This document shows, in pieces, positions 1,522-17,532 of a stretch of DNA of 29,287 nucleotides (within the stretch, counting starts at the first letter, position 1; each line of letters starts with the position of its first letter). The stretch covers positions 1 through 29,287 of IMG/VR virus record IMGVR_UViG_3300030101_002795. One strand, 5' to 3'. Position numbers and translations under genes: made by a program. Origin of the DNA: a virus. The notes under the pieces are model-generated. The model was not told where the DNA came from. It did no database searches and saw only the letters and a program-made list of their open reading frames with translations.

Positions 1522-2901
1522 TTATGCCAGTGCGTAACGCCCTTTGCGCGTACCCCAGCCTTGTTCCATCATGTCAATGACTTCTTGTCCGGTGCCTTCA
1601 TACGGCTGCTCTTCTTCCGGCTTGTGCGGTCGATATACGTGCATCATTGCATAGCGCAATTCATCTGCTGCGTGATCTTCTGCGTGGGTGTCCAGATCCT
1701 CCGGATTCTTGTTGCTTCGTGGCAACGCCGGCATGGTTCGCATCAGTGCATCGTTCCATCCGTTAAAGCAGAAAAAGCGCTCTTTAATCAGCGCGTCGTT
1801 AATCACACGCCATCCGGTGATACGGTCGTTGGATGCTCTGGTTAAAAACAATCCGCGCTCTGCAAACACATCTGCCGGTGAATGAGAAATAGCAGCCGAC
1901 AAACGGCGCTTGGTAAACATCGAAGGATCGCAATAGATGGTTTGTGGGTAGCGTCCATCCGTAAACGGACAACTCTCAATCATCTTGCAAATGTTGTCTG
2001 CATGTTGCGATGCGCTGGCGTTGTCTTGGTAATACTCTGCGATGCGATAGACGTTGCCATCGTAGTCCACCGTGTATAGGCCAAAAGAAGTGGGTGCAGC
2101 TTCACCGTAATCCATAGCGCCAAACAGCGGCCAGTGTTCGGGTATTTCGTAACTGTTAACGGCAATCTTCTTTTCGTTCCAGTTGGTGAAATATTGGCCG
2201 ACAAACGCATCCCAATCGCCTTCCAGCCATGCCTTTACCAAATGCTCGTCGCCTACACTTTTCAAACGGTTGATGTAGTGCGGATCGCGGTCTAACAAAA
2301 TCTTGTTGTCTGTAACCAGACTGCGGATATACATACGGTTCATACCGTCTTCACCCTCAATCACCGTGCCTTCCGGTGCAGGGTCAATAAAGTATTTTTT
2401 GATATTCTGGTGATTTGGCCCACCGGGGTTACCGCTACTGACAATCTTCTTGTCCGGCACATCGGCACTACCGGAACGCAAACACGCCTTAATCTTGTGA
2501 TAGGCTTTTAAGTCACTCCAGCTACCTAACTCATCAAAAGCAACAAACGTAAAAGCCATACCCTGATAATGGTCTGCATCGGCCTCGTTTTCTATGTGTC
2601 TGAGCTTGAGTGTAGCTCCGTTTGGAAACTGCCATGTATGCGTTCCGACCTTGTATTCAGCATCCGGATAGAAATCTCGATACATTTTGCGCGTTTGATC
2701 TACAATTTCGTCCAACTCCGGGTAGGTTCGCCTAAACAACACGCCTTTCCAGTGTTCACCGTACTTTTCCACACCCATCAGGAACATGTAGCACAATGTC
2801 CACGACTTACCGCCACCTCGACCGCCTCCGTAGAAAATTTCATCTACAAAATTGGCACGTATGGCCTTTTCTTGTGGGCCGGGTTGCGGTTGCCAGTTCA
2901 T
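1522..2901 (-). CDS. terL: Terminase large subunit (packaging ATPase/nuclease)
   Basis: DNA-packaging motor with an N-terminal ATPase and C-terminal RNase H-like nuclease. Walker A is GGGRGGGKS at residues 25-33; Walker B with catalytic acidic residue is VAFDELG at 120-126; coupling motif SSGNPGG is at 155-161. Likely nuclease acidic residues are D264 (AMDYGE), D325 (IYCDPSMF) and an acidic position in the DHAADELRYAMM segment around 409-414. Length, 459 aa, is normal for the family. The ATG overlaps the stop of the 52-aa upstream gene by 4 nt (ATGA), so translation is coupled. It would work with the small subunit and the portal beside it. Confidence 0.95.
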   Translation of the reverse strand: MNWQPQPGPQEKAIRANFVDEIFYGGGRGGGKSWTLCYMFLMGVEKYGEHWKGVLFRRTYPELDEIVDQTRKMYRDFYPDAEYKVGTHTWQFPNGATLKLRHIENEADADHYQGMAFTFVAFDELGSWSDLKAYHKIKACLRSGSADVPDKKIVSSGNPGGPNHQNIKKYFIDPAPEGTVIEGEDGMNRMYIRSLVTDNKILLDRDPHYINRLKSVGDEHLVKAWLEGDWDAFVGQYFTNWNEKKIAVNSYEIPEHWPLFGAMDYGEAAPTSFGLYTVDYDGNVYRIAEYYQDNASASQHADNICKMIESCPFTDGRYPQTIYCDPSMFTKRRLSAAISHSPADVFAERGLFLTRASNDRITGWRVINDALIKERFFCFNGWNDALMRTMPALPRSNKNPEDLDTHAEDHAADELRYAMMHVYRPHKPEEEQPYEGTGQEVIDMMEQGWGTRKGRYALA

Positions 2902-3056
2902 TTTGCCTTGACCTTGACTTTTTTCGGCTTTTCAACCGGAACACTACGCCAATCTTTGTTTTCACGGTGCAGACCGCCCCAATTATCCACAATCTTGGGC
3001 GCACGACTATCGGTTGGATAGATTTTTGGCCGATAGGTCTGCTCTTCAAGTATCAT
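2898..3056 (-). CDS. 52-aa protein between terminase subunits
   Basis: A short gene whose ATG overlaps the small terminase stop by 4 nt and whose TGA overlaps the large terminase ATG by 4 nt, making a three-gene coupled string. The product begins MILEEQTYRPKIYPTDSRAP, is charged, and ends in a Lys-rich tail (EKPKKVKVKAK). No domain is recognised. The exact ATGA overlaps at both ends are strong evidence of coding. A structural or accessory role in packaging is inferred from position only. Confidence 0.7.
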   Translation of the reverse strand: MILEEQTYRPKIYPTDSRAPKIVDNWGGLHRENKDWRSVPVEKPKKVKVKAK

Positions 3057-3508
3057 GCCACTGTTTCCTCAACTGTGTATTGCGCTTCCACCATCTGCTC
3101 GTTCTGTTTCAGCCATTCCTCGTAACTTTCCGCTACCGGAGGTGCGTTTAACGGTCTAACTTCCACCGTATGCTCGACCTGTAGACGGTTATCGCCCACT
3201 TCTTCACGAATCTCTTTCAACACTTTCAACTTCAGCGCTACACGCTTGTCGTCGATCTTGTTGTAAATCTCTTCCAGAGCCAAAACCCGGTTCTTTCGCC
3301 AGGCCAACGGCACCTCATCGAAATTCTTGCGATCTCGCTCCAGTGCCTCTTGCAGTGCTTCCTTGAACTCCGGCTTTTTGCGCCATGCAGCCACTGTAGA
3401 CCGATTCACATCCAGTGTTTTGGCTACTTTCTCTCCGCATTTATCCGGATTCCACCGATCCAGCACGATCAACTGCACTGCCTGTTGCTGTAGTTCGCTT
3501 AACGCCAT
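3053..3508 (-). CDS. terS: Terminase small subunit, HTH type
   Basis: Recognises phage DNA for packaging and hands it to the large subunit. The N-terminal third holds a helix-turn-helix (KCGEKVAKTLDVNRSTVAAW, about residues 22-43) like those in terminase small subunits and phage transposase-type HTHs. It is followed by helices suited to oligomerisation and an acidic C-terminal tail. The ATG at 3508 is chosen because GGAG lies 6 nt upstream and it overlaps the endolysin stop by 1 nt (TGATG); an ATG four codons earlier at 3520 is possible. Product 151 aa. Position immediately before the large subunit supports the call. Confidence 0.8.
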   Translation of the reverse strand: MALSELQQQAVQLIVLDRWNPDKCGEKVAKTLDVNRSTVAAWRKKPEFKEALQEALERDRKNFDEVPLAWRKNRVLALEEIYNKIDDKRVALKLKVLKEIREEVGDNRLQVEHTVEVRPLNAPPVAESYEEWLKQNEQMVEAQYTVEETVA

Positions 3509-3933
3509 CAGTAACTCCACAATGCCGGACGCGGTACATGGAACCCGTCACCCGACCCGATAACGTCTAGATGCAAAAACCTGTTTGATCCGGACTGCTG
3601 AACCCCGATACCCGTAAACCCCAGCTTCACCGCTGCAAAAAGCACCTGATAGGCAAACGCCCTCTCACATGCTACATCCACCGCCTTGCCGGAGGTGTGT
3701 GAACCGGTTGGCCTACCGTCTGCCAACTTTGCCGCTTCAATCGGATGATCGGGTGACCGATACCCCGACGTAATCGTCAACGGCTTACCCACTGCCTCTC
3801 GCAACTTCTGCAACTTATCCATCAAATCCTCATCCACCCGGCACATACCCGTTGCCGAACATTTCATCTCGTCAAACGAGAAGTTCGGCCAGCGGTTTGA
3901 AGGCCATTCGGCCTGATGGTAATCTCTTTGCAT
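3508..3933 (-). CDS. Peptidase M15 family endolysin (L,D- or D,D-peptidase)
   Basis: Peptidoglycan peptidase likely to act as the endolysin. The 141-aa product shows the M15 layout: FSFDEMKCSATG near the N-terminus, ITSGYRSP (54-61), then zinc ligands in SHTSGKAVDV (H79, D86) and FLHLD (H121). No signal peptide is visible, so export would need a holin. The start at 3933 matches where homologues begin; an in-frame GTG at 3963 is an alternative and neither has a strong ribosome binding site. It is the first gene of the leftward late operon, upstream of the terminases, while the holin-like genes lie far away at 17.6 kb. Confidence 0.85.
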   Translation of the reverse strand: MQRDYHQAEWPSNRWPNFSFDEMKCSATGMCRVDEDLMDKLQKLREAVGKPLTITSGYRSPDHPIEAAKLADGRPTGSHTSGKAVDVACERAFAYQVLFAAVKLGFTGIGVQQSGSNRFLHLDVIGSGDGFHVPRPALWSY

Positions 3934-3976
3934 GATGCAAAAATACCGAAGTAGAAATCGCACAAGAGATACAGTT

Positions 3977-3991: not shown

Positions 3992-4075
3992 TTTTTTTTA
4001 AAAAATTTTCAGAGAAATAAAAAAAAATTTGACAAACCGTTTTCACGGAGTTATGGTTGGGGGGGTAAGGGGGGG
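3992..4075. other. A/T homopolymer tracts next to G7-TAA-G7 block
   Basis: Eight T (3992-3999), six A (4000-4005) and nine A (4019-4027) are followed, after TTGACAAACCG, by two runs of seven G separated by TAA (4059-4065 and 4069-4075). The G block could form a G-quadruplex on the plus strand; the A/T block would melt easily. The arrangement directly precedes the 9-bp repeat array. Origin-like or packaging-related function is inference. Confidence 0.5.
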
Positions 4076-4106
4076 CAAACCGGTTAAACACGTCAAACGT
4101 CACAAT

Positions 4107-4279
4107 GTGTACACGGTGTACCCAGTGTAATCAGTGTACCCAGTTATAACCGGTGTACCCAGTGTACCCTACGCTGACAAAACGTGTACCCCACCCAACC
4201 ACCCATGGCAAATAAGAAAAGTGTCACATCTTAACCCAATCACCCGATAACACGGTGACACAGTGTACCCAGTGTACAC
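4107..4279. repeat. Iteron-like array of GTGTACCC repeats
   Basis: GTGTACCC occurs at 4116, 4134, 4153, 4162, 4184 and 4263. The perfect palindrome GTGTACAC occurs at both ends (4107 and 4272), and a degenerate copy, GTGTAATC, at 4125. Spacing is exactly 9 bp for 4107-4116-4125-4134, for 4153-4162 and for 4263-4272, so the underlying unit is a 9-mer close to GTGTACCCA. Periodic short direct repeats in a non-coding region typically bind a replication initiator, a terminase or a repressor; which one is not evident. Confidence 0.75.
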
Positions 4280-4530
4280 ACCTCCACAACATTCGCTCAC
4301 GATACAAGCTCGCCCACGTCCAGCGTCACCATTTCGGGCATAGTCACCTCGTCACGTATGGACAAATTATGGTGCTGAGATGGACACGCATATGGACGGG
4401 TATATACGGGTTCGTGTGCTTTTGACGGCACCCCCGGTCGCTTCGCCTCGACCACTGGCCACAACCGAAAACGAACACAAACACAAACCAAAACCAACAC
4501 AAAAACAACCGGCCATATTGCCAGTTATAG

Positions 4531-4807
4531 ACGCTTAGACGCTTACCAGGTTAGACTATAGACAAGCGTAGTCTTGGCATGTTGTCGCATTCTGTGCGCT
4601 ATTATGAACGCATTGAAATTGATTGATTGTGTTGGATTGAATTGCGACTTCAAGTGTAAGCGTTGATGACTCTCAAGCGTTAACTGTTCCGTCAATCGTC
4701 AAGCGTCCACTATTCGCAATACGTCGCCGACAATGCACAAAAATAGACCCGTCAAGCGTCAATGCCTAACGGGTCTAAACTTTGTAGCTCTGTAACTCTT
4801 TAAGCGT
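4531..4807. repeat. Dispersed AAGCGT / GTCAAGCGTC repeats
   Basis: The hexamer AAGCGT or its complement occurs at 4531, 4539, 4564, 4658, 4675, 4701, 4754 and 4802. Two of these belong to an identical 10-mer GTCAAGCGTC (4698-4707 and 4751-4760). Further copies lie at 5097 and, as GACAAGCGTC, at 5781-5790. The cluster fills the 3' flank of the leftward gene pair. It may be a protein-binding array; spacing is irregular, unlike the GTGTACCC array. Confidence 0.5.
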
Positions 4808-5204
4808 CTATGTAGGCCCTTGTCTTTGCTTTGGTGTCCATGCTCTCACAAGTTACCACATAGGCCCGACAAACTGAGTCAATACGCTCTCCTTGTCTTG
4901 TGTAAAAATAGGGCCTTTCGCTATGTGTTTTGGGGTTATAAGTCACTTCAATAAATCGGCTATTGTTGGCGAAAGTATCCGCGTCAATGCTTGCCAAGTT
5001 TTCGACGTTACCTTTCAGTCTTGCTCCTACTTCTCTGTGTCCTTTCGTGACAATTCGTTTATGTGTTGCGGCCGATACAACAAATTGACAATCAACAAGC
5101 GTCAAAACTGTATTAGTCAACTGTTGCGTCTTTTCTCCTTTAGGCACTACAGACAAACAACCCTTGTTAAGGTTTCCATGTGCGCTAATTTGTTGACCAA
5201 TCAT
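4800..5204 (-). CDS. Hypothetical protein, second gene of leftward pair
   Basis: A 134-aa protein I do not recognise. It begins MIGQQISAHGNLNKGCLSVV, is mixed alpha/beta in character without membrane segments, and has scattered Cys residues. Its ATG overlaps the previous stop by 1 nt (TAATG), so it is translated with the 141-aa gene from the leftward promoter at 5661-5688. An AAGCGT repeat lies inside its last codons. The coupling makes coding likely; function is unknown, though its place beside the repeat arrays would suit a DNA-related role. Confidence 0.65.
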   Translation of the reverse strand: MIGQQISAHGNLNKGCLSVVPKGEKTQQLTNTVLTLVDCQFVVSAATHKRIVTKGHREVGARLKGNVENLASIDADTFANNSRFIEVTYNPKTHSERPYFYTRQGERIDSVCRAYVVTCESMDTKAKTRAYIDA

Positions 5205-5629
5205 TACGCCAACTCGGCTTTTTTCATAGCTTCGTAAACTCTCTTGTCATATGCTCTTTTGTTTTCAGCGTCAACAGTTCCAATATATCCTTGCGTCTCT
5301 GATATCCATTCTTGCGCCACATTTTCCAATACACCAAACAATGCCAACTGCACAAGTTTAATCAATGACCTTGACTCTTCGTCATTTACTTCTACCCATT
5401 CAGGCAACTCTAACTCGTGAGCATAGTCTGTGCCGAATACTTCGCGTAATTCTTGATATGTTTTGTAAGCTACTGTATCGTCAATTAATTGGTGTAGTCT
5501 TCCGTCATACTCTAAGTCTTCAAATATTGTCTGCGCTCCTGAATGTGGTTCAAATGTCTTCAACTCTTCTTCGACTAAGTCATGTAAACTTTTGCGAAAT
5601 TCTTTTTTGACTGCTTGTAAATCTGCCAT
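5204..5629 (-). CDS. Hypothetical acidic protein, first gene of leftward pair
   Basis: A 141-aa protein of unknown function, rich in Glu/Asp and predicted mostly helical (LHDLVEEELKTF, ESRSLIKLVQLALFGVLENVAQEW). The start at 5629 is fixed by a strong AGGAGG 6 nt upstream; longer readings into the promoter region are not credible. Transcription should come from the TTGACA/TATATT promoter at 5661-5688, which contains the TATACTGAGTATA operator shared with the rightward promoter. It is therefore probably co-controlled with the 6065-8648 genes. Confidence 0.75.
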   Translation of the reverse strand: MADLQAVKKEFRKSLHDLVEEELKTFEPHSGAQTIFEDLEYDGRLHQLIDDTVAYKTYQELREVFGTDYAHELELPEWVEVNDEESRSLIKLVQLALFGVLENVAQEWISETQGYIGTVDAENKRAYDKRVYEAMKKAELA

Positions 5630-5660
5630 TGTGGCCTCCTTTAGGTTAATAGATGCCCCT

Positions 5661-5688
5661 AATATACTATACTGAGTATATATGTCAA
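5661..5688 (-). promoter_or_regulatory. Leftward promoter with embedded palindromic operator
   Basis: On the minus strand TTGACA (5688-5683) is followed after 16 nt by TATATT (5666-5661), a near-consensus sigma70 promoter. The spacer contains the perfect 13-bp palindrome TATACTGAGTATA (5668-5680). A protein bound there would block RNA polymerase. The start codon of the 141-aa gene is about 32 nt downstream. The same operator sits in the rightward promoter at 5998-6026. Confidence 0.8.
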
Positions 5689-5997: not shown

Positions 5998-6026
5998 TTG
6001 ACACAAAACAATACTGAGTATATATT
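5998..6026 (+). promoter_or_regulatory. Rightward promoter with the same operator
   Basis: TTGACA (5998-6003), a 17-nt spacer and TATATT (6021-6026) form a strong sigma70-type promoter for the 6065-8648 genes. The spacer holds ATACTGAGTAT (6011-6021), an 11-bp perfect palindrome. The 15-mer ATACTGAGTATATAT is shared exactly with the leftward promoter (5669-5683 and 6011-6025). The first gene begins at 6065 after an AAAGGA ribosome binding site. Confidence 0.85.
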
Positions 6027-7059: not shown

Positions 7060-7512
7060 ATGGTATCAGCAAACGGTAATAACGAGATACAAAAACCAGA
7101 AGACGTGAAGTATAGCAGCCGCAAAACCGACATCAAATATGAAGACGACCATTTCAACGACGGATTAGGGTCGGAAGATCCGTCAACTGATACCAATCTA
7201 CAAGTCAACACGTTTTACTTTTCTCCAAGAGGTGTAGAGCGAATTGATTTACACATGTCCAGTATGGGCAAATTTCACGATCTTGTGAAACAGATTGAGG
7301 AATACCACGACGACGAAGAATCACTTCGTATGCGCTATGATTGGACTTCTACATTTACGCTTAGTTTAGAGGACGCGAAACAATTAGTCGAAGATCTACA
7401 GAAAACCATAATCGTAGCCGAAACAGCTACAGCAGAGTATCGCGCCTATCAGTCGGCCAAGTGGAAAGCTGAACGTGCTGAACGTGCAAAAAACGAGGCC
7501 GACAATGACTAA
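7060..7512 (+). CDS. Hypothetical acidic protein upstream of recombinase
   Basis: A 150-aa acidic protein with a likely disordered N-terminal 50 residues, then a beta/alpha region (NTFYFSPRGVERIDLHMSSM, then a helix around FHDLVKQIEEYHDDEE), and a charged helical tail (WKAERAERAKNEADND). It has a clear ribosome binding site, GGAGG with 7-nt spacing. The stop overlaps the recombinase start by 8 nt at GACAATGACTAA, the same junction string found between the 175-aa and 63-aa genes, which may reflect duplicated gene borders. Function unknown. Confidence 0.7.
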   Translation: MVSANGNNEIQKPEDVKYSSRKTDIKYEDDHFNDGLGSEDPSTDTNLQVNTFYFSPRGVERIDLHMSSMGKFHDLVKQIEEYHDDEESLRMRYDWTSTFTLSLEDAKQLVEDLQKTIIVAETATAEYRAYQSAKWKAERAERAKNEADND

Positions 7513-8425
7513 CATTGCTGTTTTGCCTCACCCGTCCGCTGATTTGCTTGAACCATTCCTGGAATCGCAACTGGCCCCATCTACCCGTCAAGCGTATCGT
7601 GCCGATTTGATTGCCTTTTTTGGCACTACGCTTGTCACGGTGGATCAGGTTACTGGTGTAGCTGTAGAGGACGTTGAGCAGTTTCGTAACGATTTGATTG
7701 CAAATGATGCCAAGAATACAACCGTCAACCGTAAGCTAACATCACTACGCGGTTTCTATAGGCGTATGGTAGCCAAAGGCATTGTCAAAAAGAATCCGGC
7801 AGATCCAGCGTTAGTCAAGAATATGAAAGTGTCGGATAGTTCAGTAGGCAAAGCGATTGCGACCAAACATATTAATGCTATGTTGCGCCTGGCTCAATCG
7901 AACAAAAACGAGCTGATGGCCAAGCGTGACCACGCATTGATGCTGGTGCTACTCTATGCCGGATTACGTCGTGCGGAGGCGACAAGATTGCGTTGGTCGC
8001 ATATACGCGAAGAGGGTTCGCATTTGATTGCAGTATTGCCTAATACTAAGTCAGGCATGGAGCAACACGTCAAATTATCGCCCGTGATTGTTAAAGCATT
8101 GCAAGCCCTACGGCAAGCGTATCAGGATCAATTTGATTACGTGTTCGTTTCTCTATCCACGCTCAACTACGGCCGATCTATGCGCCCTGCTACCGTAACA
8201 GATATTGTTAAAGGATACGGCAAGCAAGTTGGTATCGACATATCCGCGCACTCGTTTCGCCATACGTGTTGCACGTTAGCGTTTGAAGGCGGAGCGCAAC
8301 CGCAAAAGGTGCAAGGACATTTACGTCATGCGGATCTCAAGACTACGCTTAGATACTATCAGGATCGTGATTCGCTTGACGATAATGCAACCGATTACAT
8401 TACGACCGGAGACAACGATGAGTGA
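7505..8425 (+). CDS. Tyrosine recombinase (XerC/D-like), first of two
   Basis: A 306-aa site-specific recombinase. Residues 12-105 resemble the SAM-like core-binding domain (FLESQLAPSTRQAYRADLIA, VNRKLTSLRGFYRRMV). The catalytic domain shows the first Arg in YAGLRRAEATRLRW (R155), Lys in TKSG (K182), HSFRH (H249, R252), GHLRH (H272) and the nucleophile in TTLRYY (Y284 or Y285). All expected residues are present, so it should be active. The ATG at 7505 overlaps the previous gene by 8 nt. It is shorter and more Xer-like than the integrase at 16273 and is not next to the tRNA-type attP. It could resolve dimers, invert DNA, or mobilise its own module. Confidence 0.9.
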   Translation: MTNIAVLPHPSADLLEPFLESQLAPSTRQAYRADLIAFFGTTLVTVDQVTGVAVEDVEQFRNDLIANDAKNTTVNRKLTSLRGFYRRMVAKGIVKKNPADPALVKNMKVSDSSVGKAIATKHINAMLRLAQSNKNELMAKRDHALMLVLLYAGLRRAEATRLRWSHIREEGSHLIAVLPNTKSGMEQHVKLSPVIVKALQALRQAYQDQFDYVFVSLSTLNYGRSMRPATVTDIVKGYGKQVGIDISAHSFRHTCCTLAFEGGAQPQKVQGHLRHADLKTTLRYYQDRDSLDDNATDYITTGDNDE

Positions 8426-8648
8426 GGAACTAACACCGGGTAAACGCATTAAAGAGGTGCGAAAAGAATTAGGAATAACGCAAGTTCAGTTTGCCGAAAC
8501 ATTAGGCGTTACGCCAGCCATTGTAAACCGGTGGGAGTCTGGCAAACAGGAACCGTCGGAAACGATTGTAAAGTTTGTCGATTTGATTGCAACCTTGAAG
8601 CCTGGCCGTGATTGGGTTAGATTACATGTGCCCAAAGCTACTGGCTAA
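8418..8648 (+). CDS. Small XRE-family HTH protein
   Basis: A 76-aa DNA-binding protein made almost entirely of a Cro/CI-type helix-turn-helix: GKRIKEVRKELGITQVQFAE, then VTPAIVNRWESGKQEP. The start at 8418 overlaps the recombinase stop by 8 nt and has GGAG upstream. It is the last gene before the terminator at 8677. It is the best in-module candidate to bind the TATACTGAGTATA operators of the divergent promoters, acting as autorepressor, or it may control recombinase directionality. Both are inference. Confidence 0.85.
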   Translation: MSEELTPGKRIKEVRKELGITQVQFAETLGVTPAIVNRWESGKQEPSETIVKFVDLIATLKPGRDWVRLHVPKATG

Positions 8649-9765: not shown

Positions 9766-9903
9766 ATGTTGTCAAATATGCTGAACGGCTGTGCAATAGT
9801 CAAATGGCTAAAGTTGCACGGCTACACAGTTGCCCTCACCCTCACATCCATTTACATCATCGCATTTGTCTTTGTGCCTTTCATCATGGAGGTCACAAAA
9901 TGA
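9766..9903 (+). CDS. Small single-pass membrane protein
   Basis: A 45-aa protein with one hydrophobic segment of about 22 residues (VALTLTSIYIIAFVFVPFIM) and a short, slightly basic N-terminus. AGTAGG/GGAAAG lies just upstream of the ATG, and the TGA overlaps the next ATG by 4 nt. That overlap and the clean membrane segment support a real gene, the first of the rightward early operon. A superinfection-exclusion or membrane-localising role is possible but not shown. Confidence 0.6.
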   Translation: MLSNMLNGCAIVKWLKLHGYTVALTLTSIYIIAFVFVPFIMEVTK

Positions 9904-10397
9904 CGGAAATGCGAACCTTTCCACCCAAACTAATTTTTGATTCTAAAGTTGTTGAAGTCACGCAAGGCAAAGACAACCGGGGCGAACCTACTACCCTACT
10001 GCCTGACGGAACGTCGCACGATCTGATTCTAAACTACGATACGCCACTGGAAAAAGCCGGTAAATACGGCCCTTACTTTATCTACAACATAGACCATCAG
10101 GGCGTAACCCACACCATGTTTTGTAATCCGCGCCAACATGAGGCGATCCAGAATGCCGGTGGACATCGTGGCTCTACGATTCATATTCAGTGCGACCGTG
10201 AGGAGTTCACTGGTAGAGACGGCACACAAAAATGGGCGCCGGTTTGGACGGTAACATGCACGGCTGCACCTAACACAACCGTAGATAGTTTTCTCGCATC
10301 CGAGCAAACCCAACAGGCTGCTCAACAAGCCACAGAACAACTCAAACCAACTAATACACCCCAACCACAAGCTGACCTGTTAGGGGGTGATCTATGA
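9900..10397 (+). CDS. Probable ssDNA-binding / OB-fold-like phage protein
   Basis: A 165-aa protein. Residues 1-120 look beta-rich (LIFDSKVVEVTQGKDNRG, YGPYFIYNIDHQGVTHTMF, STIHIQCDREEF) and could form an OB-like fold. Residues 125-165 are a Gln/Pro-rich flexible tail ending in LLGGDL. The globular-core-plus-disordered-tail plan is that of single-stranded DNA-binding proteins. GGAGG lies 7 nt before the ATG at 9900. The gene is translationally coupled on both sides (ATGA overlaps) and is followed by a protein with a clear SSB-type C-terminal tip. The assignment is inference. Confidence 0.5.
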   Translation: MTEMRTFPPKLIFDSKVVEVTQGKDNRGEPTTLLPDGTSHDLILNYDTPLEKAGKYGPYFIYNIDHQGVTHTMFCNPRQHEAIQNAGGHRGSTIHIQCDREEFTGRDGTQKWAPVWTVTCTAAPNTTVDSFLASEQTQQAAQQATEQLKPTNTPQPQADLLGGDL

Positions 10398-10861
10398 GCC
10401 TACCTGACGTTGGCTTTCGGCCTGACACGCCTACTGCTCTAACCATCATCGACTGCGCTGTTTGGCCGTATACCGTGCAAGCCGGAACAACCCAAGCCAA
10501 GTTCAAGACGGATGCCCATTCTGCAATCTTAAAAGAGCTACAGCCGATGTCGATTGCTCAAGGCGATACGATCCAGGTCACGGCCAGTAAACGAACAGAC
10601 GGTAGCGTAGCGTTTGCGGTAGAAATGATTGCACGGCATCGACCGGAACCAAACACTGAAGAACATGCCGAATGGAAATTTGAAGGCATAGTGATGATGA
10701 TGCGCCGTTGTATTGCCTCTGCGATTACTAACTGCAAGGCGAACAACTTGGAGCCTACGTCCGAACTGGTCGGGCCGATGGCTACGTCCATGTTTATCCA
10801 ATGCTGCAAAAGTTTCGATGTGAATTATCTGATCGGCGATCCGGATGACCTACCATTCTAA
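10394..10861 (+). CDS. Probable SSB-like protein with DDLPF C-terminal tip
   Basis: A 155-aa protein ending GDPDDLPF, very close to the acidic C-terminal tip (DDDIPF in E. coli SSB) with which SSB recruits repair and replication proteins. The N-terminal half is beta-rich (ALTIIDCAVWPYTVQAGTTQ, DTIQVTASKRTDGSVAFAVE), consistent with a DNA-binding core; a helical segment follows (GIVMMMRRCIASAITNCKAN). GGGGGTG precedes the ATG, which overlaps the previous stop by 4 nt. Next to a RusA-type resolvase, a recombination or replication role fits. Sequence identity to classical SSB is not visible, so the core fold is inferred. Confidence 0.55.
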   Translation: MSLPDVGFRPDTPTALTIIDCAVWPYTVQAGTTQAKFKTDAHSAILKELQPMSIAQGDTIQVTASKRTDGSVAFAVEMIARHRPEPNTEEHAEWKFEGIVMMMRRCIASAITNCKANNLEPTSELVGPMATSMFIQCCKSFDVNYLIGDPDDLPF

Positions 10862-12721: not shown

Positions 12722-12729
12722 GATTATGA
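12589..12729 (+). CDS. Small membrane protein overlapping the nuclease-like gene
   Basis: A 46-aa frame with a basic N-terminus (NKSGRKLGRYAKR), one hydrophobic segment (CIPALAILVGAIAIYKKF) and a basic tail, a positive-in single-pass topology. It overlaps the last 133 nt of the 12296-12721 gene in another frame. Its stop overlaps the methyltransferase ATG by 4 nt (ATGA). GGAG lies 11 nt upstream, a little far. The ATGA junction, repeated all along this operon, is the main argument for coding. Confidence 0.45.
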   Translation: MPSNKSGRKLGRYAKRCIPALAILVGAIAIYKKFKRNRNYEQPIGL

Positions 12730-13814
12730 CGGCCTACTACAACGAAAACGATAAACAAACTTGTGCTTGGTTGCGAGAACTGATTAAACAGGATCTGATC
12801 GCACCGGGTGACGTAGACGAGAGAGACATTAGAGATGTTAGATCAAATGAACTTATTCAATTTAAACAAATTCACCTCTTCGCCGGCATCGGGGTCTGGA
12901 GCTACGCACTCCGAAACGCCGGATGGCCGGACGATAGACCCGTCCTCACCGGAAGTTGTCCATGCCAGCCATTCTCATCAGCCGGCAAAAAAGACGGAAC
13001 AAAAGACAAGCGACACCTCTGGCCAGAAATGTATCGACTCATCGCCGGTTTACCAAAGAGCAAAAGACCGCCAACAATCTTTGGCGAACAGGTTGCACAA
13101 AAAGCTGGTCAGGCTTGGTTCGACACTCTACAAGCAGACCTGGCGCGAGAAAACTACGCCGCAGGGTTGGTCGTTTTTCCAGCTTGTAGCGTCGGCGCAC
13201 CGCACCTCCGGCAAAGACTCTACTGGTTTGCAGACAACGTGGAACAGTCCAACCGCGATGGACGGCAACAGAGGGCCACATGCCATAACGATGGACGAAA
13301 ACGGCAACGCCCAACGGATCAGCAAAACGACCGGTACAAAGTTTGGAATGACACTGGTGACGCAGAGCCAGCTGACGGCATGGAAAACACCAGTAGCCAA
13401 CGACCAGACGGGCAGTCAATATGCGTACAAAAAAAACAAGGAAAAGATCCTAAAACTGCCGGGCGAGGCTCAACTGACGGGGTGGCCAACGTGCAATGCA
13501 AGCGAAACCTGCGAGAAATTGGAGACAGTAGAAAAACGGAAACAGAGACGCAAGAAAGAAGGCAAAAGCGGAGGGCTGATGAAACTTGGCACAACAGTCC
13601 AACTGACGGGGCCGGCCCGACTAACGGCTACTGGCGAAATGCAGATTGGATCTGGTGCAGAGATCAAAAATGGAGGCCAACTGAACCCGGCCTTGAGCCG
13701 CTGGTTGATCGGTCTGCCGCCAGAATGGTGCGACTCCGCGGTTACGGCAACGCCATCGTCGCGCCCCAGGCGCAAGCATTTATAGAATCTTATCTGGAGA
13801 CCGAAAATGCATAA
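12726..13814 (+). CDS. DNA cytosine-5 methyltransferase
   Basis: Transfers a methyl group from S-adenosylmethionine to C5 of cytosine in DNA. The 362-aa product has motif I FAGIG (52-56), motif IV GSCPCQPFS (76-84, catalytic C80), motif VI as GEQV (120-123), motif VIII GAPHLRQRLYW (157-167) and motif X around GYGNAIV (339-345). Residues 172-310, the target-recognition region, are unusually polar and Arg/Gln/Asn-rich. The N-terminal MTAYYNENDK...WLRELI extension is typical of phage members. No cognate restriction enzyme is obvious, so an anti-restriction role is likely. A second frame is open through almost the whole gene (12847-13785). Confidence 0.93.
   Translation: MTAYYNENDKQTCAWLRELIKQDLIAPGDVDERDIRDVRSNELIQFKQIHLFAGIGVWSYALRNAGWPDDRPVLTGSCPCQPFSSAGKKDGTKDKRHLWPEMYRLIAGLPKSKRPPTIFGEQVAQKAGQAWFDTLQADLARENYAAGLVVFPACSVGAPHLRQRLYWFADNVEQSNRDGRQQRATCHNDGRKRQRPTDQQNDRYKVWNDTGDAEPADGMENTSSQRPDGQSICVQKKQGKDPKTAGRGSTDGVANVQCKRNLREIGDSRKTETETQERRQKRRADETWHNSPTDGAGPTNGYWRNADWIWCRDQKWRPTEPGLEPLVDRSAARMVRLRGYGNAIVAPQAQAFIESYLETENA
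12847..13785 (+). CDS. Nested +1-frame protein inside the methyltransferase gene
   Basis: A 312-aa frame (start at 12847, or 12835 for 316 aa) lying entirely within the methyltransferase gene in frame +1. It has its own protein signature: an N-terminal helical part with SLANRLHKKLVRLGSTLYKQ and TWREKTTPQGWSF, then three or four repeats of a QL-T-x-W-x-(T/S)-P type module (TTWNSPTAMDG, SQLTAWKTPVANDQTGSQYA, AQLTGWPTCNAS, VQLTGPARLT). It ends with NPALSRWLIGLPPEW and a Ser/Arg tail. I recall phage and prophage proteins with the same WPTP-type repeats and SRWLMGLPPEW ending, so it is probably conserved. Function unknown. AGAGAG upstream is a weak ribosome binding site. Confidence 0.65.
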   Translation: MNLFNLNKFTSSPASGSGATHSETPDGRTIDPSSPEVVHASHSHQPAKKTEQKTSDTSGQKCIDSSPVYQRAKDRQQSLANRLHKKLVRLGSTLYKQTWREKTTPQGWSFFQLVASAHRTSGKDSTGLQTTWNSPTAMDGNRGPHAITMDENGNAQRISKTTGTKFGMTLVTQSQLTAWKTPVANDQTGSQYAYKKNKEKILKLPGEAQLTGWPTCNASETCEKLETVEKRKQRRKKEGKSGGLMKLGTTVQLTGPARLTATGEMQIGSGAEIKNGGQLNPALSRWLIGLPPEWCDSAVTATPSSRPRRKHL

Positions 13815-14250
13815 CCTACCCATACTCGACACGAAACAAGTTTCCGAAATGTTTAGCATTCCAATGCGAACCATTAAATACTACACCGAATTGCAAATTG
13901 TAGAATTAGTAGACCAACATCCGGGCATAGGCAATACGCGCCGTTACAGCATATACAATTTGGTGAGCGTGTTACTGGCATGGCACTTGGACAATCTTGG
14001 TGTAAGCACACCGGCGATTGCAAAAAAAGCAGAGTTATTAAACCACGGTATTGCCCGATTCCTTAAGGAACCCTATCCATCGCGTTACATGTCGCTCTAT
14101 GTTACGTCAGATGCGGAAATAAAAGTATCGTGGCACACCAGCACAAATTTTCCTTATACAACGTCCATACTGATCGATTTAGAAATGCTGCACGAAGACG
14201 TGGTGGACGCGCTTAATAAACAATCGGACATCCTATGCCAAATGAAATAA
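13807..14250 (+). CDS. MerR-like HTH protein
   Basis: A 147-aa DNA-binding protein. The N-terminus carries a MerR-type winged HTH: LDTKQVSEMFSIPMRTIKYY, then RRYSIYNLVSVLLAW, matching the usual helix-turn-helix-wing pattern with its RYY and RRY landmarks. The C-terminal 70 residues (SRYMSLYVTSDAEIKVSWHT, ILIDLEMLHEDVVDALN) are not a known effector domain. GGAGA lies 6 nt before the ATG, which overlaps the methyltransferase stop by 8 nt. Probably a regulator of phage early or late genes; the target is unknown. Confidence 0.7.
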   Translation: MHNLPILDTKQVSEMFSIPMRTIKYYTELQIVELVDQHPGIGNTRRYSIYNLVSVLLAWHLDNLGVSTPAIAKKAELLNHGIARFLKEPYPSRYMSLYVTSDAEIKVSWHTSTNFPYTTSILIDLEMLHEDVVDALNKQSDILCQMK

Positions 14251-14748: not shown

Positions 14749-15012
14749 ATGGATAAAAGACAATTTAGAGATACGCACAACACGCCCATCACTCCGGCGC
14801 AACAACGGGTGCTTGATGTCATACGGCGACACTTAGAGGAACACAATCGCACACCGACCATTAGGCAGATATGCGAAGAGCTTGGACTCAAGTCTACGTT
14901 CAGCGTATCCACCCAGATAAACCGTTTGCAGAAGAAGGGTCATCTGGCATACGGGCCAAGAGTCGCGCTAAGTGACCGTTATCGAACGGTTGTCCTGGAG
15001 AAGAGCGAGTGA
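14749..15012 (+). CDS. Stand-alone LexA-type DNA-binding domain
   Basis: An 87-aa protein matching the N-terminal winged-helix domain of LexA: ITPAQQRVLDVIRRHLEEHN, RTPTIRQICEELGLKSTFSV, then a helix and wing ending in RYRTVV. LexA normally continues into an autoprotease domain of over 100 residues. Here the gene stops, so it cannot self-cleave. It could bind SOS-type boxes constitutively or control phage promoters. AAGGA lies 6 nt before the ATG, and the stop overlaps the next GTG start by 3 nt. Confidence 0.85.
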   Translation: MDKRQFRDTHNTPITPAQQRVLDVIRRHLEEHNRTPTIRQICEELGLKSTFSVSTQINRLQKKGHLAYGPRVALSDRYRTVVLEKSE

Positions 15013-16272: not shown

Positions 16273-17532
16273 ATGAATAAACCAGCAAAACGATACCACG
16301 AAGGCAATGTTGCTTATTTCAAGCGCACTCAAAAAGGCGAAGGAAAATATTGGCATTGTCAGTATACAGACCGCGTTACTGGTAAACAAGTGTCACAAAG
16401 CCTACGGTGTACAACATTAAGAATGGCTCGTAAAAAAGCAAAAGAAATCAACGACGCTTTAGAAGGTGGCACACTTAAAAAAGTCAAAGAGGTAAAAAAA
16501 AACAGAGGCGTGACCTTTGCCCAAGTGACTGAAGAATACTTCAATGGCGAAACGCAAAACACGAAGAAGTTGCGTAAGCGTCGCCTTAAGGCCGTGACCG
16601 AAAAGAGTGCTGCTACGGTTAAAGGTGAGCAGTCATTTGCACGAACCATTTGCGCTGATTTTGGACACCAACCTGTAGCATCAATCACTGCATTGGACAT
16701 CACAAAATGGTTGACCAAGATGTCGAAAAAAGGCGTAAGAGGGTTAGACGGTGGATGGACACCCAGCACCCGTAATCGCCATAAATCATTTTTCAGTTGT
16801 GTGTTACATTTGGCCGAAGAGAAAAACTACATCGCACGTTGGCCGATGGACGAGGTAGACCATGTAGATGAACTGGTCGATGAAAAGGATTTGCCCACTC
16901 AAACAAAGTTTGACCAGCTACTCGGGTATTTGCCCCCGTATGTTTCGCTGATAATGAGCCTGATGCGATATACCGGAATGCGGGCCGGTGAGCTACATAG
17001 CCTCGTATGGCGAGATATAGATTGGACGGAAAATGTTATCGTGATCCGACCAAGTAAAGAAAAAGCATCAAGGGGTCGTAAGATACCAATGAATGACTAC
17101 GTAAGACCCACGCTCGACGACTTACGCGGTGGCAGTTCTTGGGTGAAAGAGAAAAGCGGTCACAAAGTGCCTACGATCTTTTGGCCGTCCGATGAAAACC
17201 TGGACGATCTAATCATACCGCCTATCAATATATATAACACGCTTAAACGTGCCGTCGGTCAACTTTTAGAAGATACTAAGCATCTCAAAGGCGAGGATCG
17301 GTGGACAATCAAAAAGGTCAATCGCCACATGATGCGACATCTGTTTGCTACCGATGGATCAGATAGGGGTATGCGTGATTCTGTCTTGATGGATATAGGT
17401 GGGTGGAACTCTATAACTATGTTACGTCGCTATCGCCACGAATCGGCCAAGCGTAATCAGGAAGAAATGCAACTGCTTAATGGCATTGCGAATAACCCAA
17501 AGCCAAAACTAAAAGCTACAAAACGAGCCTAA
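16273..17532 (+). CDS. int: Phage integrase, tyrosine recombinase
   Basis: A 419-aa integrase with an N-terminal arm-binding region (YFKRTQKGEGKYWHCQYTDR, beta-rich), a core-binding domain (about 80-195) and the catalytic domain. Catalytic residues are visible: R237 in YTGMRAGEL, Lys in PSKEKASRGRK (about 262-264), H352 and R355 in RHMMRH, W378 in GGWNS and Y387 in LRRYRH. It should recombine the adjacent attP (16079-16125) with a host tRNA-Lys gene. The ribosome binding site lies within a direct repeat. The gene converges on the lysis genes that follow. Confidence 0.95.
   Translation: MNKPAKRYHEGNVAYFKRTQKGEGKYWHCQYTDRVTGKQVSQSLRCTTLRMARKKAKEINDALEGGTLKKVKEVKKNRGVTFAQVTEEYFNGETQNTKKLRKRRLKAVTEKSAATVKGEQSFARTICADFGHQPVASITALDITKWLTKMSKKGVRGLDGGWTPSTRNRHKSFFSCVLHLAEEKNYIARWPMDEVDHVDELVDEKDLPTQTKFDQLLGYLPPYVSLIMSLMRYTGMRAGELHSLVWRDIDWTENVIVIRPSKEKASRGRKIPMNDYVRPTLDDLRGGSSWVKEKSGHKVPTIFWPSDENLDDLIIPPINIYNTLKRAVGQLLEDTKHLKGEDRWTIKKVNRHMMRHLFATDGSDRGMRDSVLMDIGGWNSITMLRRYRHESAKRNQEEMQLLNGIANNPKPKLKATKRA

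Follow-up and report, generated by a model that had tools for sequence, protein, structure and literature searches.

In phage lambda, cosB holds three 16-bp R sites matching gpNu1. Origins of the iteron type in primase-helicase phages and in satellites, for example the ori/crr of P4, are built from short repeated octamers in noncoding DNA, and the tandem operators of ribbon-helix-helix proteins (the MetJ boxes and the omega heptads of pSM19035 parS) are contiguous units of 7-9 bp to which the protein binds cooperatively. For the pac regions of SPP1 and SF6, it has been established that the boxA repeats of SPP1 are missing in SF6, yet the SF6 TerS can substitute for the SPP1 protein, and that the DNA-binding domain of TerS binds with little sequence preference (PMC4737164).

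The locus described here belongs to a marine temperate phage represented by an IMG/VR virus record, which was analysed over its whole length of 29,287 nucleotides (the window). Its noncoding DNA before the packaging genes contains a genuine cluster of repeated 9-base words, hereafter the array. The array resembles the lambda R sites in being made of short repeated sites between a single conserved element, here a candidate for cleavage, and terS, but its words are replaced while the TerS domain stays the same. It shares short, noncoding repeats with the P4 type of origin, although an alpha-like initiator was not found in the present phage, and contiguous units of 7-9 bp with MetJ boxes and omega heptads, although no ribbon-helix-helix protein was found among the genes searched. 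Like the SPP1/SF6 pac region, it lies at terS and comprises multiple sets of direct repeats (PMC4737164), whereas here the repeats are 9-bp words, lie on the far side of the endolysin gene about 590 bp from terS, and are not known to be protected by TerS. The array words had no match in the phage literature searched. TerL (Terminase_6N), an HTH protein resembling TerS, and an M15 endolysin are all encoded leftward, and the features of this region are the following:

1522-2901, minus strand: terL (Terminase_6N)
3053-3520, minus strand: terS, HTH protein with recognition segment NRSTVAAWRKK
3508-3963, minus strand: M15-peptidase endolysin gene, the first gene downstream of the array
4056-4090, no strand: GGGGGGGTAAGGGGGGGCAAACCGGTTAAACA tract, nearly invariant among array-bearing relatives; contig L101 starts directly beside it
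4107-4279, plus strand: the array, with GTGTACAC at 4107, six GTGTACCC (4116, 4134, 4153, 4162, 4184, 4263), a degenerate unit at 4125, and GTGTACAC at 4272
4192-4262, no strand: spacer within the array, with the inverted pair GTGTCAC (4221-4227) and GTGACAC (4255-4261), kept in array-bearing relatives
4384-4448, minus strand: family-wide single-copy element of about 65 bp, AGGCGAAGCGACC..GGGGCCG....AAA..GAA.CGAACCCGTATATACYC.C.CA, candidate cos or pac site
4744-4777, minus strand: terminator-like site that ends the left early operon, a 14-pair stem followed by TTTTT
4800-5635, minus strand: left early genes (one L5 gp82-like, one orphan), not in other array-bearing relatives examined

An earlier note on this DNA had counted six copies of GTGTACCC, and all six are present, on the plus strand between 4116 and 4270 and nowhere else in the window, against 0.66 expected in the whole window; that number was reached in 0 of 100 shuffles. 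The densest 175 bp hold eight copies of GTGTACMC, compared with a maximum of two in 300 dinucleotide shuffles of the window and of three in 2000 shuffles restricted to the intergenic block. The array unit is a directional 9 bp, formed by the 8-bp near-palindrome GKGTACMC and one further base. Successive starts are separated by 9, 18, 19, 9, 22, 79 and 9 bp, with the 18-bp step filled by the degenerate unit GTGTAATC at 4125, so that the 9-bp register previously noted "in places" is real and confined to three short blocks. As in an iteron-type array, several direct repeats stand in register, here in those short blocks only. Read along the late strand, the variable part consists of 9-mers, among them GGGTACACT, GGGTACACC, GGGTACATG, GTGTACACT and GGTTTAACC. 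A coding origin of the units was rejected, since the steps of 19 and 22 place them in differing registers and no long frame accommodates them. In other phages (L009, L031, L053 and others), GTGTACCC 9-mers resemble, by reading, in-frame Gly-X-Y collagen-like repeats, and among the 89 stretches recovered by a viral-contig scan for GTGTACMCRGTGTACMC, many of those beyond the relatives are coding repeats or probably due to chance. Dense noncoding clusters of GTGTACAC or GTGTACCC were also seen in apparently unrelated phages (L014:3135, L048:5923, L051:2088, L063 and L079).

The strong terminator-like site at 4777-4744 on the minus strand, after the left early genes, places the array within some 0.8 kb of control DNA before the late genes, a noncoding block bounded on its other side by the endolysin-terS-terL operon. 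From the end of terS (3520) to the array there are 587 bp, in agreement with the roughly 600 bp given before. Farther right, sigma-70-like promoters diverge at 5661-5688 (minus strand) and 5998-6026 (plus strand); these early promoter-like sites overlap or adjoin ATACTNAGTAT palindromes, which are likely repressor operators. Among the early genes are Cro-like (8421-8648), MerR-like (13807-14250) and LexA-like (14749-15012) ones and orphans at 9804 and 10394. A relative of 36.7 kb (G002, TerL 99% identical) joins the two ends of the window by about 8.1 kb within the leftward late region, which indicates a genome of roughly 37 kb. Two tyrosine recombinases are encoded in this one temperate phage, at 7475-8425 and 16273-17532, one resembling XerC/D and the other preceded by an excisionase-like HTH gene. 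In addition, 12726-13814 and 12835-13785 are two long frames that overlap on one strand, both matched in G002, and one of them matches DNA methyltransferase PHROGs. No near record was found in the phage collection, and genome relatives reach just 25-47% TerL identity.

The comparison comprised 43 viral contigs encoding related TerL. In every contig that has TerL 91-100% identical and extends into the block, the array is found at the same place before endolysin-terS-terL and on the same strand (L096/L201, L098, L104, L105/L106, L107, L034 and L054), lying about 250 bp farther from terL in L104, L034 and L054. The GTGTACCC units keep a single direction throughout. In the alignment of these relatives the flanking blocks are conserved and units are gained or lost whole, the indels seen in L104/L105 and in L107 measuring exactly 9 nt. 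The number and arrangement of units differ even under an identical TerS (window versus L204/L107). One more distant phage, L080 (TerL 81%, TerS 89%), carries a related GGGTACA array. Among relatives with 65-80% TerL identity, the same block contains other words, namely GTGTACGCC five times in L221, CGTTGTAC nine to ten times in L223/L231, CCAAGGTC seven times in L235, and CTAGTACTAG in L245/L256. In L205, L207, L208 and L211 no word is repeated four times in the block, and L111 has only low-complexity words of the AAACCAAA type; because these five phages are without a four-times-repeated word, the array is dispensable in the family. Conservation in relatives, which had been set as a check, is therefore found among the closest kin (TerL 91-100%, and one at 81%) but gives way to other words or none at 65-80%. 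Likewise, the palindromes described as flanking the array do stand at 4107-4114 and 4272-4279 in the window, but the right-hand GTGTACAC is not kept, being absent from L107 and L098. At the place of the array, L110 and L114 have a long stretch of conserved, GC-rich noncoding DNA (up to 550 bp ahead of the endolysin gene), which may be a structured RNA and had no Rfam match at the gathering threshold. Type II hammerhead ribozymes (Rfam) were detected on the minus strand of two distant relatives, at L117:1606-1670 and L120:1455-1519, and none in the window.

Beside the array, and separate from it, the element at 4384-4448 occurs once per genome and at fixed spacing in nearly all relatives that reach the block, with 36 non-redundant ungapped copies. 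Its core was found within two mismatches in 23 of 30 records, one copy in each, compared with two matches of a reversed control pattern in the same 30. As in a cos site, the element is single-copy, conserved and near terS. When contig G001 (36,322 bp) is compared with L122, just 295 bp are missing, the part that holds the element. Such a gap would fit a cos or pac site, although an assembly stop at repeats could also explain it. We consider this element, and not the array, the likelier cos or pac signal and the best candidate in the phage family.

The earlier note had named a terminase recognition site as one possibility for the array; on this reading, TerS would read the GTGTACCC words as pac or cosB. 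The location agrees, as terS is just 587 bp away and the array occupies the same block in all array-bearing relatives. Moreover, the TerS segment STVAAWRKK is confined to array-bearing phages, L080 with its 81% TerL included, and to close kin whose contigs end before the array (L101, L103 and L202), the remaining relatives with a recognised TerS having S/TTVFRWR. The spacing of neighbouring HTHs in TerS rings, about one DNA turn (PMC4737164), also counts for this proposal. However, with array and terS adjacent, co-inheritance is expected anyway, whatever TerS reads. In six phages (L220, L221, L223, L227, L229 and L258) all 40 residues of the TerS DNA-binding domain are identical, yet no single repeated word is common to the six, although some pairs among them do share one; repeat sequence is thus not conserved where this domain is, and the words are not dictated by TerS. 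Where the segment is STVFRWRK, the phages have either several words or none, and the family-wide element at 4384-4448 adjoins the array. Different words under an identical domain, together with a separate single-copy element conserved across the family, make a sequence-specific reading of the array by TerS unlikely. Words that change under a constant TerS domain recall SPP1/SF6 with its differing boxA repeats, and TerS might therefore still wrap the array in a sequence-independent manner. Origin iterons serving a phage or host initiator are rather improbable. It is true that in the unrelated phages L048/L038 and L014 the GTGTACAC clusters adjoin Prim-Pol/VapE and DUF927 genes, where origins would be expected, but no initiator, primase or helicase was recognised by Pfam/PHROGs among the early genes searched, several of which are orphans, and the 8.1 kb absent from the window falls, as read in G002, inside the late region. 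The protein of 10394-10861 has a low-confidence predicted model containing strands and helices (mean pLDDT 45.5). The products of the 4800/5204 genes, named before as possible binders, were discarded, their genes being absent in L201, L104, L203 and L204, which bear the array; a CI-type repressor was also discarded as reader, being 37-42% identical in L204/L203, where the array is kept. What stands of the first interpretation is a noncoding control block upstream of endolysin-terS-terL, kept in close relatives; its terminase and 4800/5204 readings find less support. Arm-type sites of an attP around the core at 4192-4262 would fit direct repeats on either side of a conserved 71-bp core. This possibility is very remote, given that the integrase is 48% identical in the L201 genome (G002) beside a nearly unchanged array, with no co-variation of the two, that int lies 12 kb away, and that a 28-nt stretch of the core had no match in the bacterial and archaeal genome collection; the search for tRNA genes as attB sites yielded none. 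Neither TerS sequence specificity, the 4800/5204 proteins nor the integrase thus appears to account for the array. A structured RNA was rejected, with folding z-scores (-0.18, -0.83 and 0.59) no better than shuffles, an unfavourable covariation term (+2.18), double changes in 4 of 115 pairs and no match of the window to Rfam.

The explanation that we tentatively favour is that the array is a lineage-specific multi-site dock for a putative cooperative DNA-binding protein in a late-control or packaging block. The directional 9-bp units in the noncoding block would be repeated docking sites, a cooperative protein of phage or host origin would occupy them, and the bound protein would affect late transcription or the packaging region. 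This dock is suggested by the non-random density of the words, the retention of place and strand, the length changes of 9 nt, the single direction, the other words specific to other lineages, the bounding of the block by a terminator-like site and late genes, and the folding values that speak against an RNA element. Counting against it are the relatives lacking a word repeated four times, the variable unit number under identical TerS, and the fact that slippage alone can make short noncoding repeats. The main rival, less probable but plausible, is that the array arose by slippage and has little or no function, short words expanding and giving way to others in an unconstrained noncoding block. 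Words that vary by lineage or are missing, changes by whole units and the loss of the palindromic right boundary in L107 and L098 are consistent with slippage, but two observations speak against it: at least seven related contigs keep the GTGTACCC units in one orientation with an intact GTGTAC core although parts of the block have changed, and the same core recurs in dense clusters of unrelated phages.

With the relatives, two things can be told apart that one genome would leave merged: a repeat array that changes fast and, next to it, a conserved element. Packaging experiments should accordingly be directed to the element at 4384-4448, and repeat arrays near terS should be compared across relatives before they are called terminase sites. 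There is also a slim chance that a hypervariable recognition locus occupies the block upstream of terS, where each lineage would change its repeat word together with the reader protein, leaving the conserved cleavage element and TerS unchanged; if so, late expression or packaging would be private to each lineage.
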